Shown: piece by piece, positions 2,616 through 21,788 of the stretch
Layout: each line of letters starts with the position of its first letter
How positions within the stretch are numbered: the first letter of the stretch is position 1
Assembly (NCBI RefSeq): GCF_010726765.1
Contig: NZ_AP022602.1
Coordinates: forward strand, 147,675-211,674
Direction: 5' to 3'
DNA length: 64,000 bases
Source: Mycobacterium gallinarum
Lineage (GTDB): Bacteria; Actinomycetota; Actinomycetes; Mycobacteriales; Mycobacteriaceae
Made by a program: the position numbers and the translations under genes
Notes under the pieces: generated by a model
What the model saw: only the letters and a program-made list of their open reading frames with translations
Databases searched by the model: none
Told to the model about the DNA's origin: nothing

Positions 2616-2634
2616 CTACGTAGACGAGCAGTAG
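2616..2634 (-). promoter_or_regulatory. Envelope-regulon operator, copy A
   Basis: CTACGTAG-N7-GTAG, which on the other strand reads CTAC-N7-CTACGTAG. It lies 62 bp before the beta-lactamase-like gene. The same 19-bp pattern recurs at 8.2, 9.96, 10.2, 14.6 and 21.5 kb, always near cell-envelope genes. Confidence 0.6.
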
Positions 2635-2696
2635 GAAGCGGCGTAGGTACGGCGTGCCTTCGGCCATGGTGCGTACTGGCCTGACAAGCTGGGCCT

Positions 2697-3488
2697 GTGA
2701 AGGCGCTCGCGATCGGGCTTGTCGCACTGGTGGTACTGGTCGTGGCTCCGACGCCCGTCGCCAACGCCAACATGGCCCAGCGCATCGCGCAGGCGAACGC
2801 CTACCTCGCCACCCGTCCCGGCACCATTGGCTATGTCCTCCGCGACCGCACGACCGGACAGGCGCACCGCAACGAGGCGGCCGGCACCATGATGTGGACC
2901 GCGTCCACCATCAAACTCGCAATGGTGGTGGACCTGCTGACGCGGGCGCGCACTGGTCAGATCAGTCTGACCCCAGCCGACAGCCAACTCATGGCCGACA
3001 TGATGCATTCCTCCGACAGCAAGGCCGCTGACACGTTGTGGGAACGCTACGGCGGACCCGACAACATGGCGTTCAACCGCAACTTCCCCAACTACGGAAT
3101 GACCGGTCTGCAAGCGCAGCAGGGGTTCAGCGCCACCTACCCCTACTGGGGATTCCAAAAATCCACGAGTGATGACCTGGACCGGCTGATGAACTACACC
3201 CTCACCAAGCTGCCGCCGGCCCAGACCGCGGCCATCGTGTCGGAGATGCAGCACCTCGACGCAAACCAACAATGGGGAGTGTGGGGAGCGGGCGCGGCCA
3301 TGACCCCCGGCAACAAGAACGGATGGTCACAGGAGCAGGGGGGCTGGGTGGTCAACAGCGTTGGTTTCGCCGGCCCTCAACAGCGCTACACCCTGGCGAT
3401 CATGAACTCACTCAACGGTGAGGGCGGCTATGACGACGGTGTGGAGACCACGACGCGCCTGGCTCAAATTCTGCTATCGCCGACCTAG
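2697..3488 (+). CDS. Secreted class A beta-lactamase-like serine hydrolase
   Basis: Exported protein of 263 residues with an N-terminal signal peptide (hydrophobic residues 3-20, cleavage near ANA). It has the serine beta-lactamase/DD-peptidase motifs: STIK at residues 70-73 (catalytic Ser and Lys), SDSK at 106-109 in the SDN position, and KNG at 207-209 in the KTG position. A clear omega-loop Glu166 equivalent is not evident, so it may be a penicillin-binding or peptidoglycan-acting enzyme rather than an efficient beta-lactamase. The start is GTG at 2697 with no strong ribosome-binding site. The gene stands alone behind copy A of the shared envelope operator. Confidence 0.8.
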   Translation: MKALAIGLVALVVLVVAPTPVANANMAQRIAQANAYLATRPGTIGYVLRDRTTGQAHRNEAAGTMMWTASTIKLAMVVDLLTRARTGQISLTPADSQLMADMMHSSDSKAADTLWERYGGPDNMAFNRNFPNYGMTGLQAQQGFSATYPYWGFQKSTSDDLDRLMNYTLTKLPPAQTAAIVSEMQHLDANQQWGVWGAGAAMTPGNKNGWSQEQGGWVVNSVGFAGPQQRYTLAIMNSLNGEGGYDDGVETTTRLAQILLSPT

Positions 3489-3786
3489 CGCAGACTTCTC
3501 ACCGTGCTTGCAACAAGCACGACAACTCCCATGCGGACGACTAGTTCGTTGCCGATTGTCACCAAAGCGACTGCTGCACTCGGGATTCAATGCCGTACAC
3601 GCGACTGGCAGCGGCATGACTCCTGAGAGTCACAGTGGTCGCCGCTGGTGGAAGTGGTCTTTATCAAATCTTCATCGGAAGTCGAACCGACCCATACTTG
3701 GAATCCCGAAGCTGGAGGGTAACCGGCGGCGATAGCCCGTGTCGGTGTACGCATGAGGTCAATGGAGTGATCGGGAGGGATGTGCG
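3489..3786. other. Intergenic stretch without a gene
   Basis: About 300 bp between the hydrolase and the DUF305 lipoprotein. The only structure seen is the 11-bp-periodic direct repeat described separately. Confidence 0.6.
3657..3678 (+). promoter_or_regulatory. Candidate response-regulator site, TCTT(T/C)ATC repeats 11 bp apart
   Basis: TCTTTATC at 3658 and TCTTCATC at 3669 form a direct repeat with 11-bp period, as OmpR-family regulators use. The two-component promoter at 6455-6473 has TCTTCA repeats with the same period. It lies about 110 bp before the DUF305 lipoprotein gene. Confidence 0.5.
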
Positions 3787-4455
3787 ATGCAGCACAAGCG
3801 ATATGGATTCGGACTCGCGGCGGTGGTGGCGTTGGCCCTCTTCTCGAGCGCCTGTTCGAACACGAACAGCGAGACCCAGGGTTCCGCAGCCGCCTCTGCC
3901 CCGTCGCCGGTTTCCACCAGCGCTGCTGGCAATGACACGCACAACGACGCCGATGTGACGTTCGCTCAAGGCATGATCCCACATCATCAGCAGGCAATCG
4001 AGATGAGCGACATGCTCCTCGCCAAGCAGGGCGTCGACCCTGAAATCGTGTCGCTGGCCAACCAGATCAAGAGCGCGCAAGGTCCGGAGATCGAGCAGAT
4101 GCAGGGTTGGTTGCAAGCGTGGGGCGCGTCGTCCACACCCGCGCCCACCAGCAGCGGGATGCCCGGTCACGACATGCCCGGCGACGGTGACGCCAGTCAG
4201 ATGCCGGGTATGGCCGGCGGCGGCCACGGGATGATGTCTGAGGGGGACATGGCTGCCCTGCAGAATGCACAGGGCGGCGATGCTGGCCGGTTGTTCCTGA
4301 CACAGATGATCGAGCACCACAAGGGTGCAATCACCATGGCCCAGCTCGAAATCGACAATGGGCAGTTCCCCGCGGCGGTGGAAATGGCACGGACCATCGT
4401 TTCCAATCAGCAAGAGGAAATCACCACCATGCAGGGGATCTTGGAAAATCAATGA
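3787..4455 (+). CDS. DUF305 family lipoprotein
   Basis: Predicted lipoprotein of 222 residues: hydrophobic signal followed by the lipobox FSSAC. The mature part carries two DUF305 metal-associated motifs, MIPHHQQAIEM and MIEHHKGAITMAQLE, around a Met/His/Gly-rich linker (GMPGHDMPG, MPGMAGGGHGMM). DUF305 proteins are ferritin-like helical bundles often found beside copper genes. Copper or other metal binding at the cell surface is inferred. It converges on the histidine kinase gene, 9 bp apart, and may be controlled by that two-component system because both promoters share an 11-bp-periodic repeat. Confidence 0.85.
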   Translation: MQHKRYGFGLAAVVALALFSSACSNTNSETQGSAAASAPSPVSTSAAGNDTHNDADVTFAQGMIPHHQQAIEMSDMLLAKQGVDPEIVSLANQIKSAQGPEIEQMQGWLQAWGASSTPAPTSSGMPGHDMPGDGDASQMPGMAGGGHGMMSEGDMAALQNAQGGDAGRLFLTQMIEHHKGAITMAQLEIDNGQFPAAVEMARTIVSNQQEEITTMQGILENQ

Positions 4456-4464
4456 GCCGATTCG

Positions 4465-5655
4465 CTAGTCGGCGTGTGCGGTCAACGTCGTGCCAACCGG
4501 TGCGGCATCCTCTCGCGGGCGCGCAATCGGCAGAGCGACGGTGAAGGCTGCGCCAGTGCTAAGCCCGCCGCTCGTCACGGAGATGGTTCCGCCGTGCGCT
4601 TCGACGAGCGCTTTGGCGATTGCGAGCCCTATGCCAGCGCCGCCGTGTTCACGATCACGGGCTGCGTCTGCCCGGTAGAACCTCTCGAATAGACGTGGCA
4701 GGTGCTCGGCTGTGATTCCCTGGCCGCTGTCGATGACCGCTATAGCCAACCGGTCCGCCTCGCGAAAGCAACTGATGTTGACTGATCCTTCAGAAGGTGT
4801 GTGGCGCAACGCATTGTCGAGCAGGTTGCTTACTACTTGCGAAAGCCGCTGCTCATCACCCCACAGTCGGGGAAGGCCATCGGCAACTTGGACGTGGAGC
4901 GCCACCTTCTTAGCGTCGTAGCGGTCCTGCACCGCCGCGGCGCAGCGGCGAGCCAAGCGTTCGACGTCGATGAAGCTGTACGACATCGAGACCGAACTCT
5001 CTTCGGCCTTGGCGAGAGAGGCCAGGTCATCGGAGAACCGCACAAGACGCCCTGCCTGGTCACGCAGCATGGTTGCTGTCTGCGGGGTTAGCGTGCGTAC
5101 CCCGTCTTCGAGCGCCTCGATATAGGCGACCAGCACTGCTATAGGAGTACGAATTTCATGGGCCAAGTCGCCGAACAGTTGCCGTCTGGTCGATTCAACC
5201 GACTGCAGCCGGGACGCCATCTGGTTGAAGGCAATAGCGAGTGCGTCAAATTCATCGCCGAGCCGGGGAGATGACACCCGTGTGTCGTAGTGACCTTCAG
5301 CGACGGCGGTAGCCGCTGCCGCGACTTCGGTTATCGATCGCTGCAGCCGCCGGCTGGCGTACCAGCTCACCGCCAGAGCAGCCAGCGCGGCCACCGCTAC
5401 GGCGCCTCCCAATGAGATGGCCGTGGCGTATCCGTACGCTTCTTCGGCGTGGAATTGCTCGACGGAGTCCGCAGCGACTCCGGCTCGATGCAGATGCTCA
5501 CGAAACAGCGGCGGCCCCACAACGCCCGCCACGATCGAAGTCGTCGCTGCGCCAGCGGCTAAGACGATGGCCTGAGCCGCGAGCAGGCGTAGGCCGATGC
5601 CGGATCGGCGCCACCGGCCTCGCCGAGACCGCCGGGCGGAGGCTGTGCTGGTCAC
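4465..5655 (-). CDS. Sensor histidine kinase of a two-component system
   Basis: Membrane kinase of 396 residues. Transmembrane helices lie near residues 22-46 and 78-98 with a short extracytoplasmic loop, followed by a HAMP segment. The H box FGDLAHEIRTP has phospho-accepting His166. The N box LLDNALRH (Asn281), the G1 box DSGQGI and the G2 box GGAGIGLAIAK complete the catalytic domain. The start is a GTG overlapping the response-regulator stop by 4 bp, so it is the second gene of a coupled pair. The stimulus is unknown. The surrounding metal and wall genes suggest envelope or metal stress. Confidence 0.92.
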   Translation of the reverse strand: MTSTASARRSRRGRWRRSGIGLRLLAAQAIVLAAGAATTSIVAGVVGPPLFREHLHRAGVAADSVEQFHAEEAYGYATAISLGGAVAVAALAALAVSWYASRRLQRSITEVAAAATAVAEGHYDTRVSSPRLGDEFDALAIAFNQMASRLQSVESTRRQLFGDLAHEIRTPIAVLVAYIEALEDGVRTLTPQTATMLRDQAGRLVRFSDDLASLAKAEESSVSMSYSFIDVERLARRCAAAVQDRYDAKKVALHVQVADGLPRLWGDEQRLSQVVSNLLDNALRHTPSEGSVNISCFREADRLAIAVIDSGQGITAEHLPRLFERFYRADAARDREHGGAGIGLAIAKALVEAHGGTISVTSGGLSTGAAFTVALPIARPREDAAPVGTTLTAHAD

Positions 5656-6398
5656 TTCCCCGTTCCCATCCGGTAGCCAACCCCCCGCACTGTGGTGATG
5701 TAGCGCGGCCGCGCGGCGCCGTCACCGAGCTTGCGTCGAAGATGTCCGATGTGGACGTCGACGAGGTGCTCGTTGCCGACCCATGGACCGTCGCGAGTGA
5801 TCTCGAGAAGTTGTCGCCTCGTCAGCACCACACCGGGGCGACCTGAGAGAGCTTCGAGGATATCGAATTCGGTGCGCGTCAACAGAATCAACTCATCGTC
5901 GATGCGTACCTCTCGGGCCGCCACATCTATGGAGAGCAGTTCGAAGCGCCGCACCGGTGCGCTGTCGAGGACTGGGGCCGAGCTGGTGATCGGTACCGCG
6001 CGTGGTCGCCGCAACATGGCCCGGATGCGTGCTACGAGTTCGCGTGGGCTGAAGGGTTTGGTCATGTAGTCGTCGGCCCCGACGGTAAGACCGAGGATGG
6101 TGTCGATCTCCGTGTCCCGAGCGGTCAGCATCACGACATAGGCGTCGGAGAAGGTGCGCAGCTGTCTGCACACCTCTAAACCATCAATTCCTGGCAGGCC
6201 TAGGTCGAGGATGACGACGTCGGGGTCGAGTTCACGCGCCACCGCGATGGCGTCGACACCGTTGTCGGCGACGATCGCCTCGAACTGCTCGCGTTGCAGA
6301 TAGCTGGCTACCACCTCGGCTAGCGGTACTTCGTCGTCCACCACCAAAGCGCGATAGCCCTTCGCAGGCTTCGATGGCGTCCCTGTCGGCTGCTGCAT
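5652..6398 (-). CDS. OmpR-family response regulator
   Basis: DNA-binding regulator partnered with the downstream kinase. The receiver begins YRALVVDDEV and has the phosphoacceptor Asp in VVILDLGLPGIDGL and the conserved Lys in MTKPFSP. The C-terminal winged helix ends RGVGYRMGTGK. The ATG at 6398 gives 248 residues. An in-frame ATG at 6446 would add 16 residues with no known counterpart and would sit against the repeat at 6455-6473, so the shorter start is preferred. That repeat implies autoregulation. The small membrane-protein gene at 6536 diverges from the same region. Confidence 0.9.
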   Translation of the reverse strand: MQQPTGTPSKPAKGYRALVVDDEVPLAEVVASYLQREQFEAIVADNGVDAIAVARELDPDVVILDLGLPGIDGLEVCRQLRTFSDAYVVMLTARDTEIDTILGLTVGADDYMTKPFSPRELVARIRAMLRRPRAVPITSSAPVLDSAPVRRFELLSIDVAAREVRIDDELILLTRTEFDILEALSGRPGVVLTRRQLLEITRDGPWVGNEHLVDVHIGHLRRKLGDGAARPRYITTVRGVGYRMGTGK

Positions 6399-6454
6399 GC
6401 CACTTATGGTGCCCGCTCGCCGGTGAAGAGACACTTGCTTGCACATGCGGGCTC

Positions 6455-6473
6455 GATCTTCAGCAGATCTTCA
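6455..6473 (-). promoter_or_regulatory. Perfect GATCTTCA direct repeat, 11-bp period
   Basis: GATCTTCA-GCA-GATCTTCA lies between the divergent response-regulator and small membrane-protein genes. An 11-bp tandem repeat is the usual shape of an OmpR-family binding site. A matching repeat precedes the DUF305 gene. Confidence 0.6.
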
Positions 6474-6535
6474 TAGGACAAATACCGCGTCACTAGATGA
6501 CTGCGCAACGATGAGTGTCATAGGAGGAGCCCTCG

Positions 6536-6763
6536 ATGTCGTGGATGGACACTTGTCGCAACGCGCTTGGATGGCAGGTCTGGCTGCTACTTTGTGCGTC
6601 CGTGGTGGTGCTTTGGGCTGGCGCCATCGCCGGCGCTATCGCTCTACTTAGTTCGTCACCTCGACTTGATAACTCAGACGACGCGCCCCGCCGCGACGCT
6701 TTGACCCGACCGCATGGCGGCGGTGCCGACGCCGACATGATTGGCACGGACCGGTCACGCTGA
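6536..6763 (+). CDS. Small single-pass membrane protein
   Basis: A 75-residue protein with one hydrophobic segment at residues 13-38 and a polar, charged C-terminal tail. The start is well supported by AGGAGG at 6522-6527, 8 bases before the ATG. It diverges from the two-component system across the GATCTTCA repeat, so it is probably co-regulated. No family recognised. Confidence 0.65.
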   Translation: MSWMDTCRNALGWQVWLLLCASVVVLWAGAIAGAIALLSSSPRLDNSDDAPRRDALTRPHGGGADADMIGTDRSR

Positions 6764-6970
6764 TTCGCCGAATGTTTCGCAATGTACTGCTAAATCACCA
6801 GATTCAAAGCGTCGCCACGGATGCGAGCTCCAGGCTGCGCCAAAGGATCCGGCGCGGATGACGCAACGCTGCACGTACCAGGAAATCCACCTGTGGACCG
6901 CTACATTAAGGAATGCAGTTGAGTCGCGAAGCGAGTGGCCAGCTCGCCATCGAGAGCAGGAGGTGGCGAC
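6764..6970. other. Intergenic stretch, nothing recognised
   Basis: About 200 bp before the BlaI-like gene. No convincing gene and no copy of the TACGTAG operator was seen. Confidence 0.5.
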
Positions 6971-7180
6971 GTGGAACGACGTGGGTTCGGCGACCTCGAA
7001 GCGGTGGTCAAGGAGCCTCTCCGGGTGTACTCGGATTCCGTGACAGTGCGCGAGTCCTTCGAGGCGCCGTCGCGCCGCCGACAACTCGCCTACACGATGG
7101 GGATGTCCTCTTCCGCTGATCAAATGAGCAAGAAGCCCTGCGTGCAACTCAAGGCGGAGCCGGACAAGGGCCGGCGATGA
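6971..7180 (+). CDS. Truncated BlaI/CopY-like winged-helix protein
   Basis: A 69-residue protein aligning with the N-terminal half of mycobacterial BlaI (Rv1846c type): FGDLEAVVK, VTVRESFEA, RRQLAYT and DKGRR correspond in order. The recognition-helix region reads YTMGMSSSADQMSKK where BlaI has YTTVMTVLQRLAKK. That is one residue longer and divergent, as expected from two compensating small indels. The C-terminal dimerisation half is missing (BlaI is about 125-140 residues). The GTG start has AGGAGG at 6958-6963. Its stop overlaps the M56 peptidase start by 4 bp, preserving the usual blaI-blaR order. It may be non-functional as a repressor. Confidence 0.65.
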   Translation: MERRGFGDLEAVVKEPLRVYSDSVTVRESFEAPSRRRQLAYTMGMSSSADQMSKKPCVQLKAEPDKGRR

Positions 7181-8100
7181 TGACCACGGCCATGTGGCTT
7201 GTGCTCTACGGCGGTGTGCTCGCGTGTCTGGCGCCTCCCGTGCTGCGGCGGATGACCAGCAGCGGAATCAGCCCTTACATGGGTGTCGCTGCTTGGCTCG
7301 TCACGATTGGCGCCACGCTCATCGCCTGGGTTGTGGCCCTGGCGCTGGTACTCATCGCCGCATCGGACAGTATCCAACAGCCCTCCGCAGTGACCCTGTG
7401 CCTGGAGCTGTTTGGCTTCTCGGACCACACCCCGCTGCCAGGACGGATCGGAACAGTGGCACTGGCGATTAGCGGCCCGCTGGCGCTGTGCATAGTCGGG
7501 ATACGGGTGGGCCGCTCCATCGCGGGACTTCGCGCTCGAAGTCATGAGCATGCACACGCTGCGCGGATCATCGGAAGGCCAACAGGCCATCCCAACATGG
7601 TCGTCATTGAGGCTGCCCGGCGTGCCGCTTATTGTGTCGTCGGGCGCCCGAATGCCATTGTCGTTACCTCCGCCGCGATGAGTTCCTTGGACCGATCGCA
7701 GCTCAAAGCGGTTCTGGCGCATGAGGATGCGCACATCGCGGGCCGACACCACCACATTCTCATGGTGCTGCGGGCGCTGTCCACGACACTGCCTAGACTC
7801 CCGCTGTTCGCGATCGCCAACGATTCGGTCGCCGAACTGCTGGAGATGTGTGCCGATGACGCTGCTGCACGTAAGGTCGGCACGCGCCCATTGCTCGATG
7901 GGTTGCTCACCCTTGCCGGCCACCACGCCCCGTTACCGGAAGGTTTGGCTGCGGCGGCAACGGCAGTCGTTATTCGCGCGATGAGGCTGGCAACACCCAC
8001 GCGAAGTCACACTCGATGGCGGCACCGGTTCTCCCTCGGCGCAGCGATGACAGCGATGCTTACGATGCCCGCGCTCATCCAGGTTCTCTGCCACCACTAA
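7177..8100 (+). CDS. BlaR1-like M56 family membrane metallopeptidase
   Basis: Membrane zinc protease of 307 residues, similar to the partner of BlaI in mycobacteria (Rv1845c type). Hydrophobic helices lie near residues 5-22, 35-62 and 93-112, with another at the C-terminus. The zinc motif is HEDAH at 182-186 and the third-ligand motif EMCAD is at 223-227. There is no penicillin-binding sensor domain, so it is not a full BlaR1. Family members cleave the cognate repressor. Here the coupled repressor is truncated, so its real substrate is uncertain. Confidence 0.82.
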   Translation: MMTTAMWLVLYGGVLACLAPPVLRRMTSSGISPYMGVAAWLVTIGATLIAWVVALALVLIAASDSIQQPSAVTLCLELFGFSDHTPLPGRIGTVALAISGPLALCIVGIRVGRSIAGLRARSHEHAHAARIIGRPTGHPNMVVIEAARRAAYCVVGRPNAIVVTSAAMSSLDRSQLKAVLAHEDAHIAGRHHHILMVLRALSTTLPRLPLFAIANDSVAELLEMCADDAAARKVGTRPLLDGLLTLAGHHAPLPEGLAAAATAVVIRAMRLATPTRSHTRWRHRFSLGAAMTAMLTMPALIQVLCHH

Positions 8101-8185
8101 TCGGCACACGTCGCGGGATGGATCCCTTCGGGGGCCGCGAAATCCGGCACTTGCCTGCGGGATGGACGCAGCATGGACGACACGC

Positions 8186-8214
8186 TATACGTATCTACGT
8201 AGTAGATACGTATA
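8186..8214. promoter_or_regulatory. Palindromic envelope-regulon operator, copy B
   Basis: Perfect inverted repeat with 13-bp arms (TATACGTATCTAC and its complement) around GTA. It contains CTAC-N7-ATACGTAT on both strands. A 31-bp core here differs by one base from the palindrome at 21.5 kb. It lies about 90 bp before the atypical response regulator. Confidence 0.7.
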
Positions 8215-8304
8215 TTGCCGTTACGATAGCCGTCTGCGGGATGGTTCTTGCTATTTAATCGAGAGCGCTTGCCATCGCTGACGCATACGAGCTAGGAGCC
8301 TCAC

Positions 8305-9042
8305 ACGACTATCGAGATTGGTCACCGAGCCAGCGACTCACCGAGAGATGTTGCCGCCGGGCGCATCCGCCTGCTGCTGCTGGAGCCGCGGCACATCTAC
8401 GCGGCTAATCTGACACAGAGGCTACGCGCGCACGAATTCGCCGTTGAAGTCGTGCACTCCGAAGCAGCTGCACTTGACGAGCTGCGAAACGGCGACCCTG
8501 ACGTCGTGATGGTGTGCATAGGAACAGATGGACCGGGTGCCGCCGTGCTGGACCGTGTTCGGCAGTCGGCTCACGTCGGCGTCGTAGCCGTTACCGACGC
8601 AGATGTCAGACCGTTACTTTCGAATGTCGCACTCACATCTGAAAGGAAGATCGAGGGATTGAACACTCGTATTCGTAGCGTGCTGAGAAACAACCGAATC
8701 GGTACGCAGACAACACATCGCGGCTGGAATGGCGAAGCGATACGACCGCGCAAAATCGCAGATCTAGAGGTTGATGTGGTGTCACGTCGCGTGTTCTTGT
8801 GCGGTAATACGGTGGCGGTCACTCGTATCGAGTTCGCCATTCTCCATGCGCTTTCAGCATGCCCAGGAGAGCCTGTGACGTCTCGGCAGCTAGCAGAGTT
8901 CGTGTGGGGGAGATCCGTCACCGGTGGCCGATCCTCGCTTGGAGTGCACATTGGCAGACTCCGTCGCAAGTTGGGTGAGGACTCAGCGTCTCCTCGTTAC
9001 CTGCGCACAGTGCGTGGGGTGGGTTACTGCCTCGGAGGCTGA
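8305..9042 (+). CDS. Atypical OmpR-like regulator with degenerate receiver
   Basis: The C-terminal winged helix is intact (VTRIEFAILHALS, VHIGRLRRKLG, RTVRGVGYCLGG). The N-terminal domain has a receiver-like layout (RIRLLLLEPRHIY, DPDVVMVCIG) but Thr-Asp-Gly replaces the phosphoacceptor segment and the conserved Lys is absent, so classical phosphorylation is unlikely. The frame is open from 8305, where an ACG follows AGGAG (8294-8298) at ideal spacing. This may be a mutated or non-canonical start, giving 245 residues. The first standard in-frame start is a GTG at 8452, which would cut into the receiver. No kinase is adjacent. It is a candidate reader of the TACGTAG operators. Confidence 0.72.
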   Translation, partial: TTIEIGHRASDSPRDVAAGRIRLLLLEPRHIYAANLTQRLRAHEFAVEVVHSEAAALDELRNGDPDVVMVCIGTDGPGAAVLDRVRQSAHVGVVAVTDADVRPLLSNVALTSERKIEGLNTRIRSVLRNNRIGTQTTHRGWNGEAIRPRKIADLEVDVVSRRVFLCGNTVAVTRIEFAILHALSACPGEPVTSRQLAEFVWGRSVTGGRSSLGVHIGRLRRKLGEDSASPRYLRTVRGVGYCLGG

Positions 9043-9100
9043 AACGGACGTGAAAGGACATGAGGTCCTGGCCAAAAAGGGGGCTGGGGACACTTGCCTG

Positions 9101-9874
9101 TCACGTCTCGATGATTCGAACGACGTATGGTGTCATGCCAGCCATGCGCACCGGGGAGACCTTGATGGGAACACCAGTCTGCTGCGCTTCGATCATCTGA
9201 CCTCCACCGAGGTAGATGGCTTCATGCTGGCTGCCGCCCGGTCCCCAGAACAATAGATCCCCGCGCTTGGCTTGCGACGGCGGCACCTTACGTCCGGCGT
9301 CGTACTGGTCTCCGGAGTAACGCGGGAGCAGGACCCCCACACCGGCGAATGCGTACCGTGTCAGTCCGGAGCAATCGAATCCGACGGTGTCCGCGCCGGA
9401 GTCGATACCGCGACTAGGCCCATTAAGGCTTCCCCCACCCCAGGAATACGGGACGCCGATTTGCGTTCCGGCTCGCCTAATGACGGCCTCGATGGCCTGC
9501 GCGCCGTACACGCGGCTGCCGCGCACGCTCGCCTCAGGGGCGGCAGCAGCAGGAGGACTGAGAATCCCCAAGCTGGTCAGAAACTTGCGGCCCATCTCCA
9601 TGGTTGTCTGCGTCGCAAGGGCACTTGCTTGCAGCGAGGCGTTCGCGATGGCCACTGGGTCACCCGGTGCGCCTGCGCTCCGAAGCATCGGAAGCAGCGG
9701 ATCCCATGGTCCAGCAGTAGGTTGCGCTGAGCTCGTAGGCACGAATGTTGCAAAAAGCAACACGCTGAGCCCTAGGACCCAACTGACCCGCCGGATAGTC
9801 ACATGGCGTGCAGCGGTCGTGCGGCGCTGCGCGCAAGATTGCGTCGAGCGTTTCTGTCGGGCAAGAGAATTCAC
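9101..9874 (-). CDS. Secreted NlpC/P60 peptidoglycan endopeptidase (RipA/RipB type)
   Basis: Exported protein of 257 residues with a signal segment near 28-50 (cleavage after SSA). The NlpC/P60 domain fills residues 120-257 and matches the RipA/RipB catalytic domain closely (GVPYSWGGGSLNGPS, GMTPYVVR). The catalytic triad is Cys168 in FDCSGL, His217 in GSQHEAIYL and Glu229. The 49- and 12-residue spacings equal those of RipA. The family cuts D-Glu to meso-DAP bonds. The long coiled-coil region of RipA is absent. Copy D of the envelope operator lies 82 bp upstream of the start. Confidence 0.92.
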   Translation of the reverse strand: MNSLARQKRSTQSCAQRRTTAARHVTIRRVSWVLGLSVLLFATFVPTSSAQPTAGPWDPLLPMLRSAGAPGDPVAIANASLQASALATQTTMEMGRKFLTSLGILSPPAAAAPEASVRGSRVYGAQAIEAVIRRAGTQIGVPYSWGGGSLNGPSRGIDSGADTVGFDCSGLTRYAFAGVGVLLPRYSGDQYDAGRKVPPSQAKRGDLLFWGPGGSQHEAIYLGGGQMIEAQQTGVPIKVSPVRMAGMTPYVVRIIET

Positions 9875-9956
9875 GCCGACTCTCCTTCGTGCGCCGCGGG
9901 AGTCGTTCGCGTCAAGCCAAGGCGCGGCTCACACAACTGGACTGCCCAGTGACGAT

Positions 9957-9975
9957 GTACGTAGCTGATACGTAG
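9957..9975 (+). promoter_or_regulatory. Envelope-regulon operator, copy D
   Basis: GTAC-N7-ATACGTAG containing two TACGTAG words exactly 11 bp apart (9958 and 9969). It lies upstream of the NlpC/P60 gene. Confidence 0.55.
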
Positions 9976-10195: not shown

Positions 10196-10238
10196 ATGAG
10201 GGCGTTGATTGGGCGCTCCCCGCAGCAGGAGGAACGAT

Positions 10239-10814
10239 ATGGCACAACGAAACGTCGTCATCGTGTTGATGACTGCACTGCTTATCGCCGCCGCGACAGC
10301 GCTCAGCGCACCTTCCTCTGCAGCCGAGGCCTGTCCCCACCAGTTCGGCTCACCACAACAACGCGTGGACGCCGCCGGCACCGTCGTCCAAGAATGGACC
10401 ATCGCAGGACTGCAGAAGTCCGAGGACGTTTTGCCCGGCTATACCCCTCGCGGGCAACTCTGGCAAGCGACCGCCACTCTGCAAGCTGTCAAAGGCACAG
10501 TGACGCCGCTCATCCCCAGCTTCTACGCTGCGGCGCCAGGTGGTCAGCGCGTCGGGGTTCTCTGGCAGGCGGCAACCCCACAGGGCATTGCACCGACAAC
10601 TTTGGCACAGGGGCAATCTTCGACAGGGAAAATCTACTTCGACGTCATCGGTGAAGATCCGATGGGAATCGTTTACAACGACGGGGCGGGCGAATTACTG
10701 ATGTGGTGCTGCGAGAGCGGTATGACGATGTCCATGCCGATGTCCATGCCGATGGACAGATGCCCGATGTGTGCCGCCAGGGATTGCCCCTGCCCGCACC
10801 GCAACATGATGTGA
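10239..10814 (+). CDS. Secreted MPT63-like (DUF1942) protein with Met/Cys-rich tail
   Basis: A 191-residue exported protein. The signal peptide covers residues 4-29, followed by an MPT63-type immunoglobulin-like domain (VVQEWTIAGL, GQLWQATATL, STGKIYFDVIG) to about residue 155. An extra 36-residue tail follows, with about nine Met and six Cys, including GMTMSMPMSMPM and CPMCAARDCPCPH. MPT63 itself ends before such a tail. The composition resembles Cu(I)-binding segments, so copper binding outside the membrane is a reasonable inference. The start ATG has an AGGAGG upstream. It is monocistronic behind operator E. Confidence 0.82.
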   Translation: MAQRNVVIVLMTALLIAAATALSAPSSAAEACPHQFGSPQQRVDAAGTVVQEWTIAGLQKSEDVLPGYTPRGQLWQATATLQAVKGTVTPLIPSFYAAAPGGQRVGVLWQAATPQGIAPTTLAQGQSSTGKIYFDVIGEDPMGIVYNDGAGELLMWCCESGMTMSMPMSMPMDRCPMCAARDCPCPHRNMM

Positions 10815-11714: not shown

Positions 11715-11728
11715 ATATCGCCGGATCT

Positions 11729-14625: not shown

Positions 14626-14644
14626 CTACGTAACGGGATAGTAG
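14626..14644 (-). promoter_or_regulatory. Envelope-regulon operator, copy F
   Basis: CTACGTAA-N7-GTAG, 36 bp before the first L,D-transpeptidase start. Same layout as copy A. Confidence 0.6.
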
Positions 14645-14680
14645 GTTGTGGCAGGACCGGTGCTCGGGAAGGAAGGCGCA

Positions 14681-15436
14681 ATGATTAAGGGGGTTCGCAT
14701 CGCGTTTGTCATGGTGAGTGCCGCAGTCATCGCGGTCGGCAGCTCAGCTGCGGTCGGTGCGCCAGTCGCCGCGTCAATGAGCCGTCCCGCGCTTGTTGTG
14801 GACATCTCGCCCGGACCTGGCCAGGTGGTCGGAATCGCTCAGCCAATCACGGTGCGTTTCGACGGCCCGGTCGCCGACCGCGCGTCCGCTGAGCGCGTGA
14901 TTACGGTCGAGTCGCCCATGCCGGTGTCGGGCCGATTTACCTGGTTGGGGGACCGCGTCGTGGAGTGGCAGCCAGAAGGGTTCTGGCCGGCCTATACGCC
15001 AGTGACAGTGACTGTGGGCGGCATGTCGACCAGCTTCGAGGTTGGCGCAGCGGTGATGGCCGTCGCGTCGATCTCTGCGCACACGTTCACTGTCAGTATC
15101 GACGGCGAGACGATTCGAGAGATGCCGGCGTCGCTCGGAAAGCCTGGCTTCGACACCCCGCAGGGCGATTTCAGGGTGCTGGAGAAGCAACGCAATGTGA
15201 CGTTCGATTCACGCACCATCGGCATTCCGCTCGATTCACCGGAGGGTTACCTGATTGACGGCGAGTACGGGGTGCGGATTACGTGGGGCGGTGTTTACGT
15301 GCATTCGGCTCCATGGTCCGTCGGCTCTCAGGGCAAGGCGAATGTCAGCCACGGATGCATCAATCTAAGTCCCGAGAATGCGGCGTGGTATTTCGAAACG
15401 GTGGGCATCGGGGATCCGGTTATTGTGCAGGCTTGA
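14681..15436 (+). CDS. L,D-transpeptidase (YkuD domain with Ig-like domain)
   Basis: Exported wall cross-linking enzyme of 251 residues. It has a signal peptide at 1-30 and an immunoglobulin-like domain at about 38-125 (FDGPVADRASAERVITVES, typical of mycobacterial Ldt proteins). The YkuD catalytic domain at 132-251 has His208 and the SHGCINLS motif with nucleophile Cys226. It should form 3-3 cross-links and is of the carbapenem-sensitive type. The ATG at 14681 is chosen over an upstream GTG because AAGGAAGG lies just before it. The C-terminal extension of LdtMt2 is missing. Confidence 0.91.
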   Translation: MIKGVRIAFVMVSAAVIAVGSSAAVGAPVAASMSRPALVVDISPGPGQVVGIAQPITVRFDGPVADRASAERVITVESPMPVSGRFTWLGDRVVEWQPEGFWPAYTPVTVTVGGMSTSFEVGAAVMAVASISAHTFTVSIDGETIREMPASLGKPGFDTPQGDFRVLEKQRNVTFDSRTIGIPLDSPEGYLIDGEYGVRITWGGVYVHSAPWSVGSQGKANVSHGCINLSPENAAWYFETVGIGDPVIVQA

Positions 15437-15517
15437 TGGCCGAAATCTTATGAGCGCCTAGCGAAGAAGTGTCCGGTTGTGTGGCTATTCAGTTCTGGCC
15501 CTAGGAGAGGCAACTTG

Positions 15518-18500
15518 ATGCAGCGCACTTGGACTAAAGCAATCTTGGGCATTGCACTCGCTGTTGCCATGGCGACGACCGCCCTTACCGCGTCTTGCAG
15601 CTCCGACGAGGGGTCGGAAGTGTTGACGGGCGTTAACGCGGGTCCAGATGGTAAGCCGGCCCCATTCAAAGAGCCGGTCAGGTTGTCCAGCAAGGACGGC
15701 GTCCTCGAGGTGCGGCTGTCGGCGCATCAGGGCACGGTCAGCCTCGACACAGTCAAGAAACCGGTAAGCAGCTTCTTGGTGTTCGGCTATGAGCTGATTC
15801 AAGGCACGAGCTCGGACGGATCGACCTCGGGCGACAACATGTACCCTGCCCCGACCTTGCGGGTGGAACCCGGCGAGAGACTTATCATTTACTACGACAA
15901 CGACTTACAAGGTCTGACCATCCCCGATTTCAACGACCCGGCGATGACACCGGCGGGTGGCGAAGTCCCGATCTACCCGCCGGCACTGACCTCGGCGCCG
16001 CTGAATCTGCATACCCACGGCTTACACGTGAGCCCGTCAGGTAATGCCGACAACGTCCTGGTGTCCATACCGGCGGGCATGGGCAACACCTTCGACTACG
16101 CGGTGCCCACCGACATGCCCAACGGCCTGTACTGGTATCACCCCCATCGGCACATGGTGAGCGCCCAGCAGGTGTACGGCGGATTGGCCGGCTTGCTGGA
16201 AATTGGCCGGCCCGACGGCAATTTGCCCCTGGTGACGAAGAACAACATACCGATTCGCGATATGGCGCTGCAGTACAACTTCGTCTTCGACAGGAAGGGC
16301 GGTGGTCACGAGCTGAACAACCCCTACTGGGAGCAATGGGTGAGCACACTCAAGCCGCCGGAAGGCTCGCAACTCGCCGACGGCACCTACTCCCCGAGTC
16401 TGGCCCCGGTGAACTTCTCGGAATCAACGAAAGGCGCCGAGTACTTCACCAACTGGTACGCCGGTCCGCTGTCTCCCCAAAATCACAGGGGACAGAATCA
16501 GTTCATACCCCAGAATCTGCAGACATTCACCAGTCCATCGAAGACCGTGCCCGCCGACCCCGGGCTACCGGACAATCAGCGCGATGTGCAATTCACTGTC
16601 AACGGCCAGTTCCAGCCAGAGTTGAAGGTCAAGCCAGGCCAAACTGAGATATGGGTGCTTGCGAACATGAGCGACATTGCCTACATGCCAATCAGACTGA
16701 CCGAGACAGCCACAGGCAACCACCCGAAGTTCTCGATCGTCGGGCAGGACGGCAACCCCTACACGCAGGTGCAGCGACCCGTGGACGGCGATGGGACCTA
16801 TCTCGAGATCCCGCCGGGGTCGCGTTATGCCATCGCGGTGACCATGCCCAAGACGGGCGATCTCGTTGTCGACATGCCGCCGAAAGACGGTGTCAAGGGG
16901 ATCTCAGAACCGGCTGTCCTGTACACCAATAACGAAACCAAGAACGCTCCGGCCGTGCTGGGGACAGTGACCATCGACCCCAAGTACATCAGCGCGCGAG
17001 ATGGCTTCTTCACATTTCCTACGCAAATCCTCCTTCGCGCGACCCCCGAGAGCGGCGAGGGACAAACGACACCTTTCGAGCCCGGCCAGAATCTAGGCGC
17101 CTACACATCCTTCGTCGACACAGCAGCGATGACGCCCGATATCAAACGTACACTTGACATCTCGGGTGGCTTCGGCAACAAGAAGGCTAGTGACAACGAT
17201 CCCAAGGCATTCACCTATGAGTTCGAAGACAACATCTTCCCGTACGTCCCGTTGATACAGCCGCGGCTCAACTCTGTCGAGGAATGGTCGATCACCAACT
17301 ACAACAACGACGGACACCCGATGCACATCCACGTCAATGATTTCCAGGTGATGGAAGTGGTGAACCCCCTCGCGGGAACCAGGACCGGCGTCCAGCCGTG
17401 GGGGTTGGACAACGCCAACGTTCCTCCGCCCGTGATCGATGAAAACGAGAACCCGCTCGTGCCCGCGTCATTGACGTTGCGCTCTAAATTCACTGAGTAC
17501 AAGGGAACTTTCGTCATACATTGTCACCGGTTGAATCATGAGGACAACGGACTGATGGCGATCGTCAACGTGATTCCCGAAGTGTCGACATATGCGGTCG
17601 CCCAGCCTGGATCACCAGGCAAACCTGCAACGGTGCGGATACACGACGGCAGCGGTGACAAAGTGCTGGGCTTCGTAACCCCGTTCCCCTCCTTCGAGGG
17701 CACTCCTTCAGTGGCGATGGCCGACGTGAATGGCGACATGATTCTCGACCTCATAGTCGGCACGGGTGGAGGTGTTGACCCCGAGGTGGTGGTCTACGAC
17801 GGCAACGACGCCGCCGACGGCCGATTCACGTCGGAAATCACGCGATTTGCGCCCTTCGACGCCGGCTTGCGAGGCGGAGTCAACGTGGCTGGCGCAGACA
17901 TCGACGGAAACGCGTTGGCCGACAACATCATCGTGGGAACGGGTCCAGGCATCGAATCGCAGGTGAAAGTATTCTCATCCGATCTCCCCGCGGAGAGGGA
18001 CCAGGCGCCCGACGTGTTCTCCGCCTTCACACCGTATCCCGGCTCGAAATCCGGTGTCTCTGTCGCTACGGGAATGGTGGAGCTAGGGTCCGGCCGGGAA
18101 AGCATCGTCGCGGCTCCCGGGCCGGGAGATGCTCCGCAAGTCAAGACCTTCCGTTTCGACCTGTTTAAACCGACAGCGAGATCGCAGGCCAATGGCACCG
18201 CCACAGAGCATTCAGGCAAGCCGAACGAGCCGAGAATAACCTCACAGTTCATGGCCTACGACGAGAACTACACGGGCGGAGTGTCATTGACTACCGGATG
18301 GGTAGTCGGGGCTGAGGGTGGCGCCAAGAGCATCATTACCGGTCAACTGGCCGGGGATGGCACCGTGCGGGTCTGGTCCACTGGTTCGCGTTTGGACGGC
18401 CAGCCCGCCTCGTATCTCAGGAACCCGAATGACCACGAGGGACCTCTTGAGTATGCCCAGATCTCATCGTTCGCGCCGTTCAACGACGGCGCGGACGGAG

Positions 18501-18694
18501 TGACAGTCGCGACCAGCAGCACCCCCTACGGCGCGGATCTACTCCTTAGTGGCGGGGTGACCGGCGGCACCGAGGTACGCAAGTATGGGCTCGTTCCCGC
18601 AGGGCCGGGCATGACGACCGTGGTGCCCAAATTGTTGACCACGCTTCCGACTCTTCCCGACGTCTCTGGCGCGGTCCCCATGGCGGGTCGCTAG
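15518..18694 (+). CDS. Giant multicopper oxidase lipoprotein with C-terminal FG-GAP propeller
   Basis: About 1058 residues, probably a lipoprotein (hydrophobic signal, TASC with Cys27). The oxidase part spans roughly 40-690. Copper motifs are HTHGLHVSP (about residue 165), YWYHPHRHM (about 207), GHPMHIHVNDF (about 598) and IHCHRLNHEDNGLM (about 668, type 1 Cys, His and Met). From about 695 to 1045 there are FG-GAP/VCBS-like repeats such as MADVNGDMILDLIVGTG and GADIDGNALADNIIVGTG, suggesting a beta-propeller. Typical bacterial multicopper oxidases are near 500 residues, so the fusion is unusual. AGGAGAGG supports the ATG at 15518. Cuprous oxidation for copper tolerance is inferred from context. 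Confidence 0.9.
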   Translation: MQRTWTKAILGIALAVAMATTALTASCSSDEGSEVLTGVNAGPDGKPAPFKEPVRLSSKDGVLEVRLSAHQGTVSLDTVKKPVSSFLVFGYELIQGTSSDGSTSGDNMYPAPTLRVEPGERLIIYYDNDLQGLTIPDFNDPAMTPAGGEVPIYPPALTSAPLNLHTHGLHVSPSGNADNVLVSIPAGMGNTFDYAVPTDMPNGLYWYHPHRHMVSAQQVYGGLAGLLEIGRPDGNLPLVTKNNIPIRDMALQYNFVFDRKGGGHELNNPYWEQWVSTLKPPEGSQLADGTYSPSLAPVNFSESTKGAEYFTNWYAGPLSPQNHRGQNQFIPQNLQTFTSPSKTVPADPGLPDNQRDVQFTVNGQFQPELKVKPGQTEIWVLANMSDIAYMPIRLTETATGNHPKFSIVGQDGNPYTQVQRPVDGDGTYLEIPPGSRYAIAVTMPKTGDLVVDMPPKDGVKGISEPAVLYTNNETKNAPAVLGTVTIDPKYISARDGFFTFPTQILLRATPESGEGQTTPFEPGQNLGAYTSFVDTAAMTPDIKRTLDISGGFGNKKASDNDPKAFTYEFEDNIFPYVPLIQPRLNSVEEWSITNYNNDGHPMHIHVNDFQVMEVVNPLAGTRTGVQPWGLDNANVPPPVIDENENPLVPASLTLRSKFTEYKGTFVIHCHRLNHEDNGLMAIVNVIPEVSTYAVAQPGSPGKPATVRIHDGSGDKVLGFVTPFPSFEGTPSVAMADVNGDMILDLIVGTGGGVDPEVVVYDGNDAADGRFTSEITRFAPFDAGLRGGVNVAGADIDGNALADNIIVGTGPGIESQVKVFSSDLPAERDQAPDVFSAFTPYPGSKSGVSVATGMVELGSGRESIVAAPGPGDAPQVKTFRFDLFKPTARSQANGTATEHSGKPNEPRITSQFMAYDENYTGGVSLTTGWVVGAEGGAKSIITGQLAGDGTVRVWSTGSRLDGQPASYLRNPNDHEGPLEYAQISSFAPFNDGADGVTVATSSTPYGADLLLSGGVTGGTEVRKYGLVPAGPGMTTVVPKLLTTLPTLPDVSGAVPMAGR

Positions 18695-18736
18695 GTGGAC
18701 TTACGAAGAAGTGCCGGTGCGCGCCGTCGCAGAACG

Positions 18737-20110
18737 CTAGGCGCCAAAGAGTAGGTAGAGGCCGAGGAACGAATACCCAACCATGGTCAGCAACAACATC
18801 AGCTGCCCGGTCAGTTGGTGTCCCGCTGGCAACACTTGCAAGGCTTTGTCGTGCGCGGCAACAACTCCGGCGATGTGACCCGCAACAACGCAAAAAACTT
18901 TGATTGTTGACAACGCCGCGGGATGAAGCGATAGCCAATAGTTCGCATCCCAGGCATCCAACCCGAACAGTTGCCATCCGTTGTCCAGTGGGTCGGCCAG
19001 AAGGAGTACCGTTTCCTGGCCGCGCTCAATGAGGTACGACAGGTAGTGGGCAAACACGTAGCCCACGACGATGGGAATCAGAGTATGCGCCATTTGCCCG
19101 GGAAGTTGGCGGCGCTGTTGCCGGTCTATCCCGCCAGCGGCCCGGGCTGCTACCCAGAACGTCACTGCGACACTAACAATGAACGACAGTAGGCCGGCCG
19201 TGCGTAGCAGCGTGCCGCCGACGACTGCAGAGACGAGCGGGAAGGAGGCCTCGTGGTCGTAGACGAAGTTTTCGACCGGCGGCATCGCGGAGAAGCTGTC
19301 GAACGCGGTGGATCCCAGGAGCACGGCAAGCACGGCCAGCAGTCCCGGCCGCACGGGCATCGACGGCAGGTGGTCAAGCGGATTGCCGACAGCGATCAGA
19401 CGGGTGCCGGTGTTACGCCGCAATGGCGACAGCCGCGAAACCACCACGCTGTACACCTCGAAGGGGTCCGCGCGGGCGAACCACCGCTGCCCGTATAGCA
19501 GTGCGCCACCCATCATCACCGCGACGTAGACCACGAGCCAGATCTTGATAGCGGTCAGCGTCCCGTAATTTGGGCTCGCCAACTCGAGCCAAACGAACGC
19601 GAACAAACCAAGCGCTGCGGGCCAGTACCCCCACTTCGTAGGATAGTGCAGCTTGCGAGCCGACCCGTTCCCGAATTTCCTTTGACAGCTATCGATTAGG
19701 CGATAGACGGTTCCCGTCGGCGAGACGACCCGCCACACCGGCCCGATGGCGAGTGAAACTGCCACCAGCCCCACCCACAGCAGGACATAGAAGACTCCCC
19801 GAAGAGGGTTCAACGCATCCTGCGGTCCAACTACCGTCGCGACTGCGACCCAGGCTGTGAACAGCAACGCGCCGATCGCGGCGATCCAGCGAATCGCCTG
19901 TGAGTCCACGGTGTGCGTCACCCACGCCGGTAGCGCACGGCCGGACTTTGCGGGATCGAAACGGGGCTTTCTCCACCCAAAGGCCAAGATCACGAAAGTG
20001 AACGTCAGTGCCGATGTCGCGCCGATCAACACCAAAGACATCGGCACCGGGAGATCGGAGGGTCCGCCGACACCGTGTGCTAGGATCGCCGCGTCCTCTG
20101 CCCAGATCAT
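18737..20110 (-). CDS. Polytopic membrane protein, function unknown
   Basis: A 457-residue protein with about ten hydrophobic segments. From memory, database entries for similar actinobacterial membrane proteins are sometimes named fenitrothion hydrolase. I cannot confirm that here and assign no reaction. Visible features are a WAEDAAILAHGVGG start and conserved-looking His and Asp residues in the last third. The ATG at 20110 is chosen because it overlaps the preceding gene's stop by exactly 4 bp. It is last in an operon after an L,D-transpeptidase and a His/Cys-rich protein, and it converges on the multicopper oxidase gene. Confidence 0.78.
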   Translation of the reverse strand: MIWAEDAAILAHGVGGPSDLPVPMSLVLIGATSALTFTFVILAFGWRKPRFDPAKSGRALPAWVTHTVDSQAIRWIAAIGALLFTAWVAVATVVGPQDALNPLRGVFYVLLWVGLVAVSLAIGPVWRVVSPTGTVYRLIDSCQRKFGNGSARKLHYPTKWGYWPAALGLFAFVWLELASPNYGTLTAIKIWLVVYVAVMMGGALLYGQRWFARADPFEVYSVVVSRLSPLRRNTGTRLIAVGNPLDHLPSMPVRPGLLAVLAVLLGSTAFDSFSAMPPVENFVYDHEASFPLVSAVVGGTLLRTAGLLSFIVSVAVTFWVAARAAGGIDRQQRRQLPGQMAHTLIPIVVGYVFAHYLSYLIERGQETVLLLADPLDNGWQLFGLDAWDANYWLSLHPAALSTIKVFCVVAGHIAGVVAAHDKALQVLPAGHQLTGQLMLLLTMVGYSFLGLYLLFGA

Positions 20111-20481
20111 AGCCGGACTTGCAAACCAGTAGCTGTGCAACATAAGTCGTGCACGTCGATGCGGCCACAGCCAAGGCGATCATGGGTCAACATGAACACC
20201 TGCCCCGGGTGGACCTGCACGTTGAAGGTGTGTTTCCGGCATTGAAGTGAATGCAGTTGATCGGCGCCATCGCCGTGGGCCTGTAGCACGACGCGGATGC
20301 CGCTGTGGCCGTGTCCGCGGTTGTGATCGCAATGATCGCTGCCTCGGCCCGACGGCGCGAATGCGATGGCGAGACAGTGGCATGGCCCCGCATGCCGACA
20401 CACGTAGGGCCTGCGGACGATGAATGCACGGTTGGTTAGCGTCTGCACGGCAACTACGCATGAGGCGTGTCCGGGGGGCAC
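20107..20481 (-). CDS. His/Cys-rich 124-residue protein of unknown function
   Basis: No family recognised. The frame has strong G/C preference at third codon positions, sits 22 bp after the L,D-transpeptidase stop, and its own stop overlaps the next start by 4 bp, all supporting a real gene. It has many possible metal ligands: CRHAGPCHC, SDHCDHNRGHGHS, HSLQCRKH, LTHDRLGCGR and VHDLCC. No signal peptide or membrane helix is clear. The start is a GTG at 20481. A metal-buffering or metal-delivery role is only inferred from composition and neighbours. Confidence 0.62.
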   Translation of the reverse strand: MPPGHASCVVAVQTLTNRAFIVRRPYVCRHAGPCHCLAIAFAPSGRGSDHCDHNRGHGHSGIRVVLQAHGDGADQLHSLQCRKHTFNVQVHPGQVFMLTHDRLGCGRIDVHDLCCTATGLQVRL

Positions 20482-20503
20482 ACCATCTGAGCGTGGAGCC
20501 TCG

Positions 20504-21367
20504 CTAACCCGTCACGACCCGGGGTACTTCAATGCTGTTCTCCTGCACAATTATTGGATCGCCGACGTTCACCGTATTGAAATACCACTCCGCGTCCTCA
20601 GTGCTCAAGCCGATACAGCCATGGCTCACATTCTCGTACCCGAGTGAATTTACAGCCCACGGCGCTGAATGCACGAACAGGCCGCGAGCAGTGAAACGAA
20701 TGGCGTACTCCACGTCAAGCAGGTAGCCGTCCGGCGAGTCGATAGGGATGCCGACGCTGCTCGAATCCATGACTATGTCGCGCTCCCTCGCCAAGACGGT
20801 GTAGGTACCCACAGGCGTCGGATATGCGGGCCTACCCATCGAAGCCGGGAACACGCCGGGCTTTCCCCAGTTGGCCCGGTGGTGTGGCGAAGGCAGTTCT
20901 GACGGCGGTACGCCATCGATGGTCACTGTAAACGTCTTGTCTGCGACATTGGCAACGCCAATAACTGCGGCACCTGTCTGGAAGTTGGTTAGCGGGATGT
21001 TGCGTACCGAAAGGGCGATCGCGCTGTGGGCAGGCCAGAACTGGTCGGGAACCCATTGCACGACGTTGTCGTCGACCCATTCGAACTTGCCGGTCATCAC
21101 AGGCGACGATTCAATGTCGATGGCGCGCTCCGCCTTACGCTTGTCGGCGACCGGCGCGCTGAACGTCACCACGACGGGCTGTGCTACTCCGACGACATCG
21201 CCCTTCGCCGGTCGTACCGAAGCAATAGGCGGGTGGTAAAAGGGTTTCGCCGTCGCGGAAGGTAAGTACGACGGGCTCGCCGCCAGGACACTGTTTCCGG
21301 GCGGACCCGAAGCCACAATCGCATTCATCGCGATCGCTGCAAGAGCACACAGAACAACCCCACGCAT
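20504..21367 (-). CDS. L,D-transpeptidase (YkuD domain with Ig-like domain), second copy
   Basis: An exported 287-residue paralogue of the enzyme at 14.7 kb. It has a signal peptide at 1-30 and an Ig-like domain at about 48-135 (TFSAPVADKRKAERAIDIES). The YkuD domain at 143-287 has His233 and VSHGCIGLS with catalytic Cys251. It differs from the first copy by a longer linker (PSPHHRANWGKPG) and a short C-terminal extension. It is first gene of a three-gene operon with the His/Cys-rich and polytopic membrane proteins. The large palindromic operator C is 160 bp upstream. Confidence 0.9.
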   Translation of the reverse strand: MRGVVLCALAAIAMNAIVASGPPGNSVLAASPSYLPSATAKPFYHPPIASVRPAKGDVVGVAQPVVVTFSAPVADKRKAERAIDIESSPVMTGKFEWVDDNVVQWVPDQFWPAHSAIALSVRNIPLTNFQTGAAVIGVANVADKTFTVTIDGVPPSELPSPHHRANWGKPGVFPASMGRPAYPTPVGTYTVLARERDIVMDSSSVGIPIDSPDGYLLDVEYAIRFTARGLFVHSAPWAVNSLGYENVSHGCIGLSTEDAEWYFNTVNVGDPIIVQENSIEVPRVVTG

Positions 21368-21788
21368 AGCCTACGTTCCTTCGAAATTACAATGGTGTCA
21401 ATTCGATCGTAGAGCGGCGGGGTCGATTCGATGTGTAGGTGCGCCTTCGCAATTCGGTCAAGGATCAGTCACGCTTCGGCCACAGCGAATGAAATCGACC
21501 ATGTTGCTATCGTGGCCTCGCCGACGAATATACGTATCTACGTGGTAGATACGTATATTGTTCGGAAGTAGCTGCTCTCGAACCAAGGCTGCTGCGATCT
21601 GCAGAGCTTTCGGTTTCAGTCATGCTGCTCTGGGTTACACGGCAGCCGCCCAATCAGCTTAGCGCGGCGAGTCGCCTCCGAGGCCGGACGATCCGCAGTG
21701 TGGGCGTGCGGCATAACTGGGAAGAGCGCTCTCAATCTGACCACCCAGATCGACCGACAGCCACGACCGGTCATACGGCGCTGCTTGC
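21368..21788. other. Gene-free stretch with palindrome C
   Basis: 421 bp between the L,D-transpeptidase start and the end of the next minus-strand gene. Apart from the 33-bp palindrome, nothing was recognised. Confidence 0.6.
21527..21559. promoter_or_regulatory. Palindromic envelope-regulon operator, copy C
   Basis: Perfect inverted repeat with 15-bp arms (AATATACGTATCTAC and its complement) around GTG. It shares 30 of 31 core bases with copy B at 8.2 kb and includes the CTAC-N7-ATACGTAT pattern in both directions. Confidence 0.72.

Follow-up and report, generated by a model that had tools for sequence, protein, structure and literature searches.

Palindromic operators of a probable BlaI–M56 envelope regulon on a Mycobacterium gallinarum plasmid

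We analyzed a 64,000-nucleotide stretch of Mycobacterium gallinarum DNA (the window; C2:147675-211674, where C2 is the 211,674-base plasmid contig of a two-contig genome), in which one operator-like sequence recurs upstream of envelope genes. With a probability of roughly 0.83, these sites are operators of a plasmid-borne, island-type BlaI repressor (BlaI_1), which together with short M56 membrane proteases would control a mobile envelope regulon, copper or thiol damage being the preferred signal. The operators, their placement and conservation, their co-occurrence and linkage with blaI–M56 genes, and a BlaR1-like model of the transducer were obtained directly in this analysis.

Operator sites and their shape

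A first-pass annotation of the window had reported six sites with a shared layout, CTAC-N7-(N)TACGTAG, marking an envelope-centred gene set. Allowing up to two mismatches, CTAC-N8-TACGTAG was matched 19 times in the window against 4.3 expected, a count reached in 0 of 100 dinucleotide shuffles, whereas the one-base-shorter layout occurred at chance (4 matches versus 4.8 expected). A matrix of 29 columns was then built from 71 distinct sites, all from other genomes, and used at a threshold of 18 bits; because it was seeded with exact CTACGTAG-N7-GTAG cores, it is biased to the exact-core form. Trained in this way without the own genome, it recovered the same six sites. When the whole of C2 was scanned, 12 merged places reached at least 18 bits, all at C2:128310-169230 (a span within 41 kb), against a mean of 0.03 matches in 30 order-1 simulations of C2 and 0 in 30 order-3 simulations. 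Of these, six are in the window (2616, 8195, 9957, 10177, 14626 and 21538, of which 8195 and 21538 overlap the sites 8187 and 21530 listed below) and the other six to its left (C2:128310, 130731, 133492, 136672, 142901 and 146617), an extension of about 19 kb; the matrix scan gave no operator of at least 18 bits right of 21559 in the window, in agreement with the earlier remark that its right half was free of sites. With gene limits bounded by homology, all 12 operators were intergenic: those at C2:142901 and 146617 lie inside the longest possible reading frames, and the homologous proteins begin downstream of the site. The earlier observation of a recurring site was thereby confirmed. Of the 23 copies of the hexamer TACGTA in C2, 21 fall between 124963 and 174538. 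The operators of the window and the genes that they precede are as follows.

2616..2634, +, operator (20.2 bits), 62 bp 5' of the beta-lactamase-like gene; its other flank faces ArsR/P-type ATPase genes
2697..3488, +, exported beta-lactamase-like serine hydrolase (Pfam Beta-lactamase2), with an STIK motif (SxxK)
8187..8213, no strand assigned, double overlapping palindromic operator (32.0 bits), 91 bp before the gene of the atypical regulator RR_B
8305..9042, +, RR_B, with an OmpR-type DNA-binding domain and a receiver half unrecognised by Pfam; start codon uncertain
9101..9874, −, RipB-type NlpC/P60 peptidoglycan endopeptidase (NF033742, 372 bits, cut-off 335)
9957..9975, −, operator (27.7 bits), 82 bp before the NlpC/P60 gene
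10177..10195, −, operator (27.6 bits), 43 bp before the DUF1942 gene, with the motif oriented away from the gene
10239..10814, +, DUF1942 protein (PF09167)
14626..14644, +, operator (22.7 bits), 36 bp before the L,D-transpeptidase ATG, with a GTG at 14648 as possible alternative start further upstream
14681..15436, +, L,D-transpeptidase (Big_10 and YkuD)
20504..21367, −, second L,D-transpeptidase (Big_10 and YkuD)
21530..21556, no strand assigned, double overlapping operator (25.9 bits), 162 bp before the second L,D-transpeptidase gene

The shared operator marks a gene set centred on the envelope, as the first-pass annotation had proposed. The gene at 2697 scored 18.7 bits with the NCBIfam class A beta-lactamase model, far under its cut-off of 200. 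The operator-linked L,D-transpeptidase gene at 14681 is followed directly, at 15479-18694, by the gene of a 1071-aa protein that has multicopper-oxidase domains. A 247-aa protein at 21789-22532 had no Pfam or NCBIfam match; in its orthologues at loci L065 and L068 the operator is directly upstream of it, and here it is downstream. At 26864 (C2:174538), about 165 bp before the gene of a heavy-metal-associated protein of a CsoR/P-type ATPase cluster, TACGTAGATAGTAG occurs with a spacing unlike that of the operator and a matrix score under the threshold.

The operator core is an inverted repeat, ATCTACK-N9-MGTAGAT, with outer arms ATCTAC-N11-GTAGAT round one centre, and perfect operators read CTACGTAG-N3-CTACGTAG, as at 8559 of locus L056, where 29 bases are near-perfectly palindromic. 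The sites at 8187 and 21530 each consist of two overlapping operators with a common centre, and the operator before ctaD (C2:136672) retains the outer arms only, the inner GTAG being lost. The direct 11-bp repeat described earlier is therefore an incomplete account of the symmetry; what the sites share is the ATCTAC/GTAGAT inverted repeat. They do not match TACA-N2-TGTA, the operator consensus of BlaI/BlaR1-type systems (PMC7253601). Searched with up to one mismatch, ATCTACK-N9-MGTAGAT was found at ten places in the own genome, and its backward control at none; the ten were three plasmid operators, two places beside a chromosomal island-type blaI–M56 pair, four copies of an unrelated sequence (one inside ctaD) and one other. 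The mycobacterial −10 box is TAnnnT, and the right arm GTAGATT could overlap such a box in several sites. Even so, a promoter or compositional feature with no dedicated reader is extremely improbable, as Markov models expect essentially no sites, genomes with at least two matches are nearly confined to those with island-type BlaI, and near-perfect palindromes extend to 29 bp, as in L056.

The operators lie in a conserved metal and envelope island whose start, when M. rufum proteins were mapped onto C2, lay well to the left of the window. Its genes include a blaI–M56 pair, ctaD, CcdA- and CtaG-type genes, thioredoxin-like genes, L,D-transpeptidases, RipA/RipB-type NlpC/P60 genes, P-type ATPases and CsoR. 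Of the named plasmids in the collection, the closest are those of Mycolicibacterium vanbaalenii JOB5 and M. rufum (about 79% identity over pieces of window 175-6365); both carry orthologous operators before ctaD, L,D-transpeptidase/CcdA, RR_B and RipB. Over its last 26.5 kb (window 37534-64000; C2:185208-211674), C2 repeats the 26.4 kb with which it starts, the identity being 99.6% with 94 gap columns and 4 mismatches. The probable cause is a circular plasmid of about 185 kb whose overlapping ends were left untrimmed, and this portion of the window is thus likely to have been duplicated in assembly.

The reader of the operators

Two blaI–M56 gene sets and one two-component pair, composed of a response regulator (RR_A) and a histidine kinase (HK), bear on the identity of the reader.

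C2:134786-135172, left of the window, BlaI_1, island-type BlaI, plasmid-borne
C2:133845-134789, left of the window, M56_1, membrane protease gene adjoining BlaI_1
6935..7180 of the window, +, BlaI_2, second blaI reduced to a short remnant, lying upstream of M56_2; its N-terminal part alone is recognised by tblastn
7177..8100 of the window, +, M56_2, membrane metalloprotease of 307 aa with HEDAH, ending in LCHH; candidate sensor/transducer
4465-5655 of the window, within the island, HK
5652-6446 of the window, within the island, RR_A

BlaI_1 matched the BlaI repressor family (PF03965, 85.3 bits, cut-off 22.6) and is related to M. tuberculosis BlaI 2g9w (E 2.1e-21); its pair with M56_1 lies 12.5 kb left of the window on the same plasmid. 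The first-pass annotation had offered RR_B and a BlaI-type protein as candidate readers: a BlaI-type reader is likely, and the BlaI in question is not solely chromosomal, the island having its own plasmid blaI–M56 pair.

Co-occurrence was evaluated over 297 genomes of the genus, with exact CTACGTAG-N7-GTAG as the motif (a palindromic site counts as two matches) and with presence defined as E<1e-30 with BlaI_1 for island-type BlaI, E<1e-50 for RR_B and E<=1e-70 for RR_A; the statistics ignore ancestry, and genome counts were drawn from search tables, not match lists. The motif was present in 86 genomes, 48 of which had at least two matches (motif-rich). Island-type BlaI was found in 125 genomes. 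Of the 48 motif-rich ones, 47 have it, and in the remaining one, G220, a BlaI match is present but weaker; 12 motif-positive genomes were without the island type, with a single motif match in 11 of them. In 51 genomes with island-type BlaI there was no exact motif match. The backward control pattern was associated with BlaI only weakly, at one or more matches (p 0.047).

Linkage was examined in 31 loci, including 20 and nine regions hand-chosen from motif-positive genomes, so that the tally describes motif-positive loci and not all genomes. None of their 77 operator places fell inside stretches matched by the gene library, and the genes within 300 bp downstream were NlpC/P60 (13), blaI (12), L,D-transpeptidase (12), DsbA-like (5), RR_B (4), CtaD (4) and CcdA (4), while 24 of the 77 had no library gene in that range. 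In L052, L055, L066 and L071, 26-66 bp separate the operator from the first aligned blaI codon, and the stretch examined has no RR_A or RR_B; in L057 the operator stands before an L,D-transpeptidase gene followed by blaI and M56, and in L052, L061, L062 and L089 between L,D-transpeptidase and DsbA-like genes, adjoining blaI–M56. Operators recur in other mycobacteria and in Rhodococcus (L082, L083), and that of L082 adjoins blaI. Among 72,556 plasmid records, 106 matched BlaI_1, and at least 80% of BlaI_1 was covered in 73.

RR_B was the alternative named first, in line with an OmpR-like reading of CTAC at 11-bp period; on this view the operators are direct repeats bound by RR_B, perhaps to activate the target genes together with its own. 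The protein has an OmpR-type DNA-binding domain, all 28 genomes carrying it have at least two motif matches, its own gene is operator-preceded in 5 of 5 islands inspected (C2, L017, L018, L065 and L069), and the 11-bp GTAG spacing is indeed that of OmpR/PhoB-type direct-repeat regulons. However, the island operator has inverted-repeat symmetry and is also found where OmpR-type candidates are missing: 20 of the 48 motif-rich genomes have no RR_B, and 19 of these 20 have island-type BlaI. RR_B relatives are mostly 52-60% identical to the window copy, yet the operator stays recognisable. RR_B is thus an unlikely reader, and since it is missing from those 20 genomes its gene looks like a target of the operator. 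A still less likely reader is the RR_A/HK pair, which sits inside the island and whose RR_A has a relative in 44 of the 48 motif-rich genomes. RR_A was found in 134 genomes, of which 90 have fewer than two motifs; it was missing from four motif-rich genomes (G041, G122, G199 and G220), among which G199 has an operator 35 bp from the first aligned blaI codon; and it was correlated with the backward control pattern too (p 0.002 at one or more and 0.02 at two or more matches).

Of BlaI_2, L065 and L069 have what looks like a whole copy and L017 and L018 a drifting one, and a short remnant is left in the window; in the M. vanbaalenii and M. rufum plasmids the second blaI is drifting too, and BlaI_1 is 97% identical. 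With M56_2 intact beside the decayed BlaI_2, it is as if one repressor now served two sensors. The host chromosome has another island-type blaI–M56 pair between two variant operators, CTACGGNGTANNACCGTAG (L015/L020, C1:1842419 and 1844120). A palindromic operator also lies 42 bp before a host chromosomal LdtMt2-like lipoprotein gene (L012:7880-7898, C1:3907879), an arrangement repeated in L058, L061, L062 and L089.

A distinct BlaI–M56 branch and its possible signal

The BlaI–BlaR pair of M. tuberculosis, Rv1846c-Rv1845c, likewise combines a BlaI repressor with a short M56 protease without penicillin sensor, and has been reported to be linked to beta-lactamase and respiratory genes (PMC5473688). 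Rv1846c-type BlaI was found in 60 of 60 genomes searched, against 125 of 297 for the island type. In 30 upstream regions of 110 bases each, sampled from 60-odd matches across the genus, Rv1846c-type blaI was preceded by GTAGTA in 30 of 30 and by GTAGTA-N5-GTAGTA, with its 11-bp period, in 21 of 30; the island operator CTACGTAG-N7-GTAG was found in 0 of these 30. The 11-bp period reported earlier therefore holds, whereas its OmpR specificity does not: BlaI genes of the genus share GTAG elements at this spacing, so an OmpR-type reader is not needed. The island element differs in reading GTAGAT instead of GTAGTA, and recognition-helix residues differed consistently between the two types in an alignment that omitted one duplicate and two near-copy rows, contained one Rv1846c-type gene twice and included as one island row the drifting BlaI_2 of L017. 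Island BlaI would accordingly read a sequence related to, yet distinct from, the Rv1846c-type element, and operator, recognition helix and two predicted extracytoplasmic protease cysteines set its branch apart from the Rv1846c/Rv1845c-type pairs.

The two M56 proteins are 307 and 314 aa long; the domain scan gave an M48-type peptidase match alone and no penicillin-binding or transpeptidase sensor domain in either. The M56 partner next to blaI has HExxH and a BlaR1-like fold, its structure model matching the membrane-protease part of BlaR1. Cys75 of M56_2 is in predicted extracytoplasmic loop 1, and a second conserved cysteine, Cys305, also predicted to face outward, is at the C-terminus (LCHH); neither was present in any of 30 Rv1845c-type proteins. 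Five of 28 M56 sequences were left out of the island M56 comparison (one duplicate locus, two L018 near-copies and two run-on frames), and a homologue set, A1, comprised 56 of the 120 listed, chosen by us. In BlaR1, loop EL1 and the C-terminal extracellular domain act jointly in signalling (PMC9834060). The island system shares with S. aureus BlaI/BlaR1 and MecI/MecR1 the winged-helix repressor and membrane protease, and differs in having no detected penicillin-binding sensor in its M56 proteins, another operator geometry and other targets. Copper repressors of the CopY/CopR type belong to the same repressor superfamily, and their half-site YGTMRNY (PMC7253601) fits CGTAGAT; however, BlaI_1 scored 31 bits against a CopY/TcrY cut-off of 122 and has an M56 partner, and, because the protein contains no cysteine, it lacks their C-terminal CXC metal site.

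We infer a scheme in which BlaI_1, paired with adjacent M56_1 and with M56_2, would sit on ATCTACK-N9-MGTAGAT at promoters in the unstressed cell, until an envelope signal activates M56 protease, BlaI is cleaved and the regulon is released. The signal that we favour is extracytoplasmic copper or thiol-reactive damage, which the conserved M56 cysteine pair would detect, one cysteine being in loop 1 and the other at the C-terminus, where BlaR1 has its penicillin sensor. The predicted regulon comprises four plasmid L,D-transpeptidases, two NlpC/P60 endopeptidases, DsbA-, TlpA- and CcdA-like thiol-redox proteins, cytochrome oxidase subunit I, probably CtaG-type assembly factors, the beta-lactamase-like hydrolase, DUF1942 and DUF305 proteins, perhaps an M23 endopeptidase, and RR_B as a secondary regulator; most of the named targets look like exported or membrane proteins. 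Families such as these are exported, and L,D-transpeptidases and NlpC enzymes have catalytic cysteines. Many targets are cysteine-dependent (L,D-transpeptidases, NlpC/P60, DsbA-, TlpA- and CcdA-like proteins), and CtaD and CtaG serve copper oxidase or its assembly. Release would supply replacement exported cysteine enzymes together with thiol-redox and oxidase-assembly proteins. An L,D-transpeptidase of V. cholerae is inhibited by copper and by no other metal salt tested (PMC11390936). Given the copper-type genes of the plasmid, the regulon is most simply read as replacing and protecting those envelope enzymes that copper or oxidants disable.

The same reader could instead respond to beta-lactams or wall damage by a route other than the M56 cysteines, an explanation that overlaps ours save for the signal. 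Wall enzymes are numerous among the targets, which also include a beta-lactamase-like hydrolase; L,D-transpeptidases provide a bypass for beta-lactams; and amoxicillin-clavulanate induces blaR and blaI in M. tuberculosis (PMC5473688). Neither M56 protein shows a penicillin-binding domain, however, genes for thiol redox and oxidase assembly belong to the set, and metal resistance is encoded in the island; we consider a beta-lactam or wall-damage signal quite possible, though on balance doubtful. In its most specific form, the copper/thiol reading is that the island M56 proteins are a BlaR branch in which a minimal extracytoplasmic Cys-His site (Cys75 and the Cys-His-His tail) replaces the penicillin sensor and senses copper or thiol oxidation directly, governing a mobile BlaI regulon of exported cysteine enzymes that copper or oxidants can poison and of a copper-oxidase assembly line; this we hold tentatively, at a little short of even odds.

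According to PMC5473688, mycobacterial BlaR proteins are without a beta-lactam sensor, and the way in which M. tuberculosis responds is not known. Since operator, BlaI branch and a specific cysteine pair are now named, each of them mutable, the sensing question becomes directly testable for this branch. The operators link metal resistance islands to L,D-transpeptidase control, including that of the host chromosomal LdtMt2-like gene, and suggest a route by which metal exposure could alter wall cross-linking. If the Cys-His sensor reading is true, metal resistance islands would bring along spare wall enzymes under their own control, and tolerance of beta-lactams could arise as a by-product.

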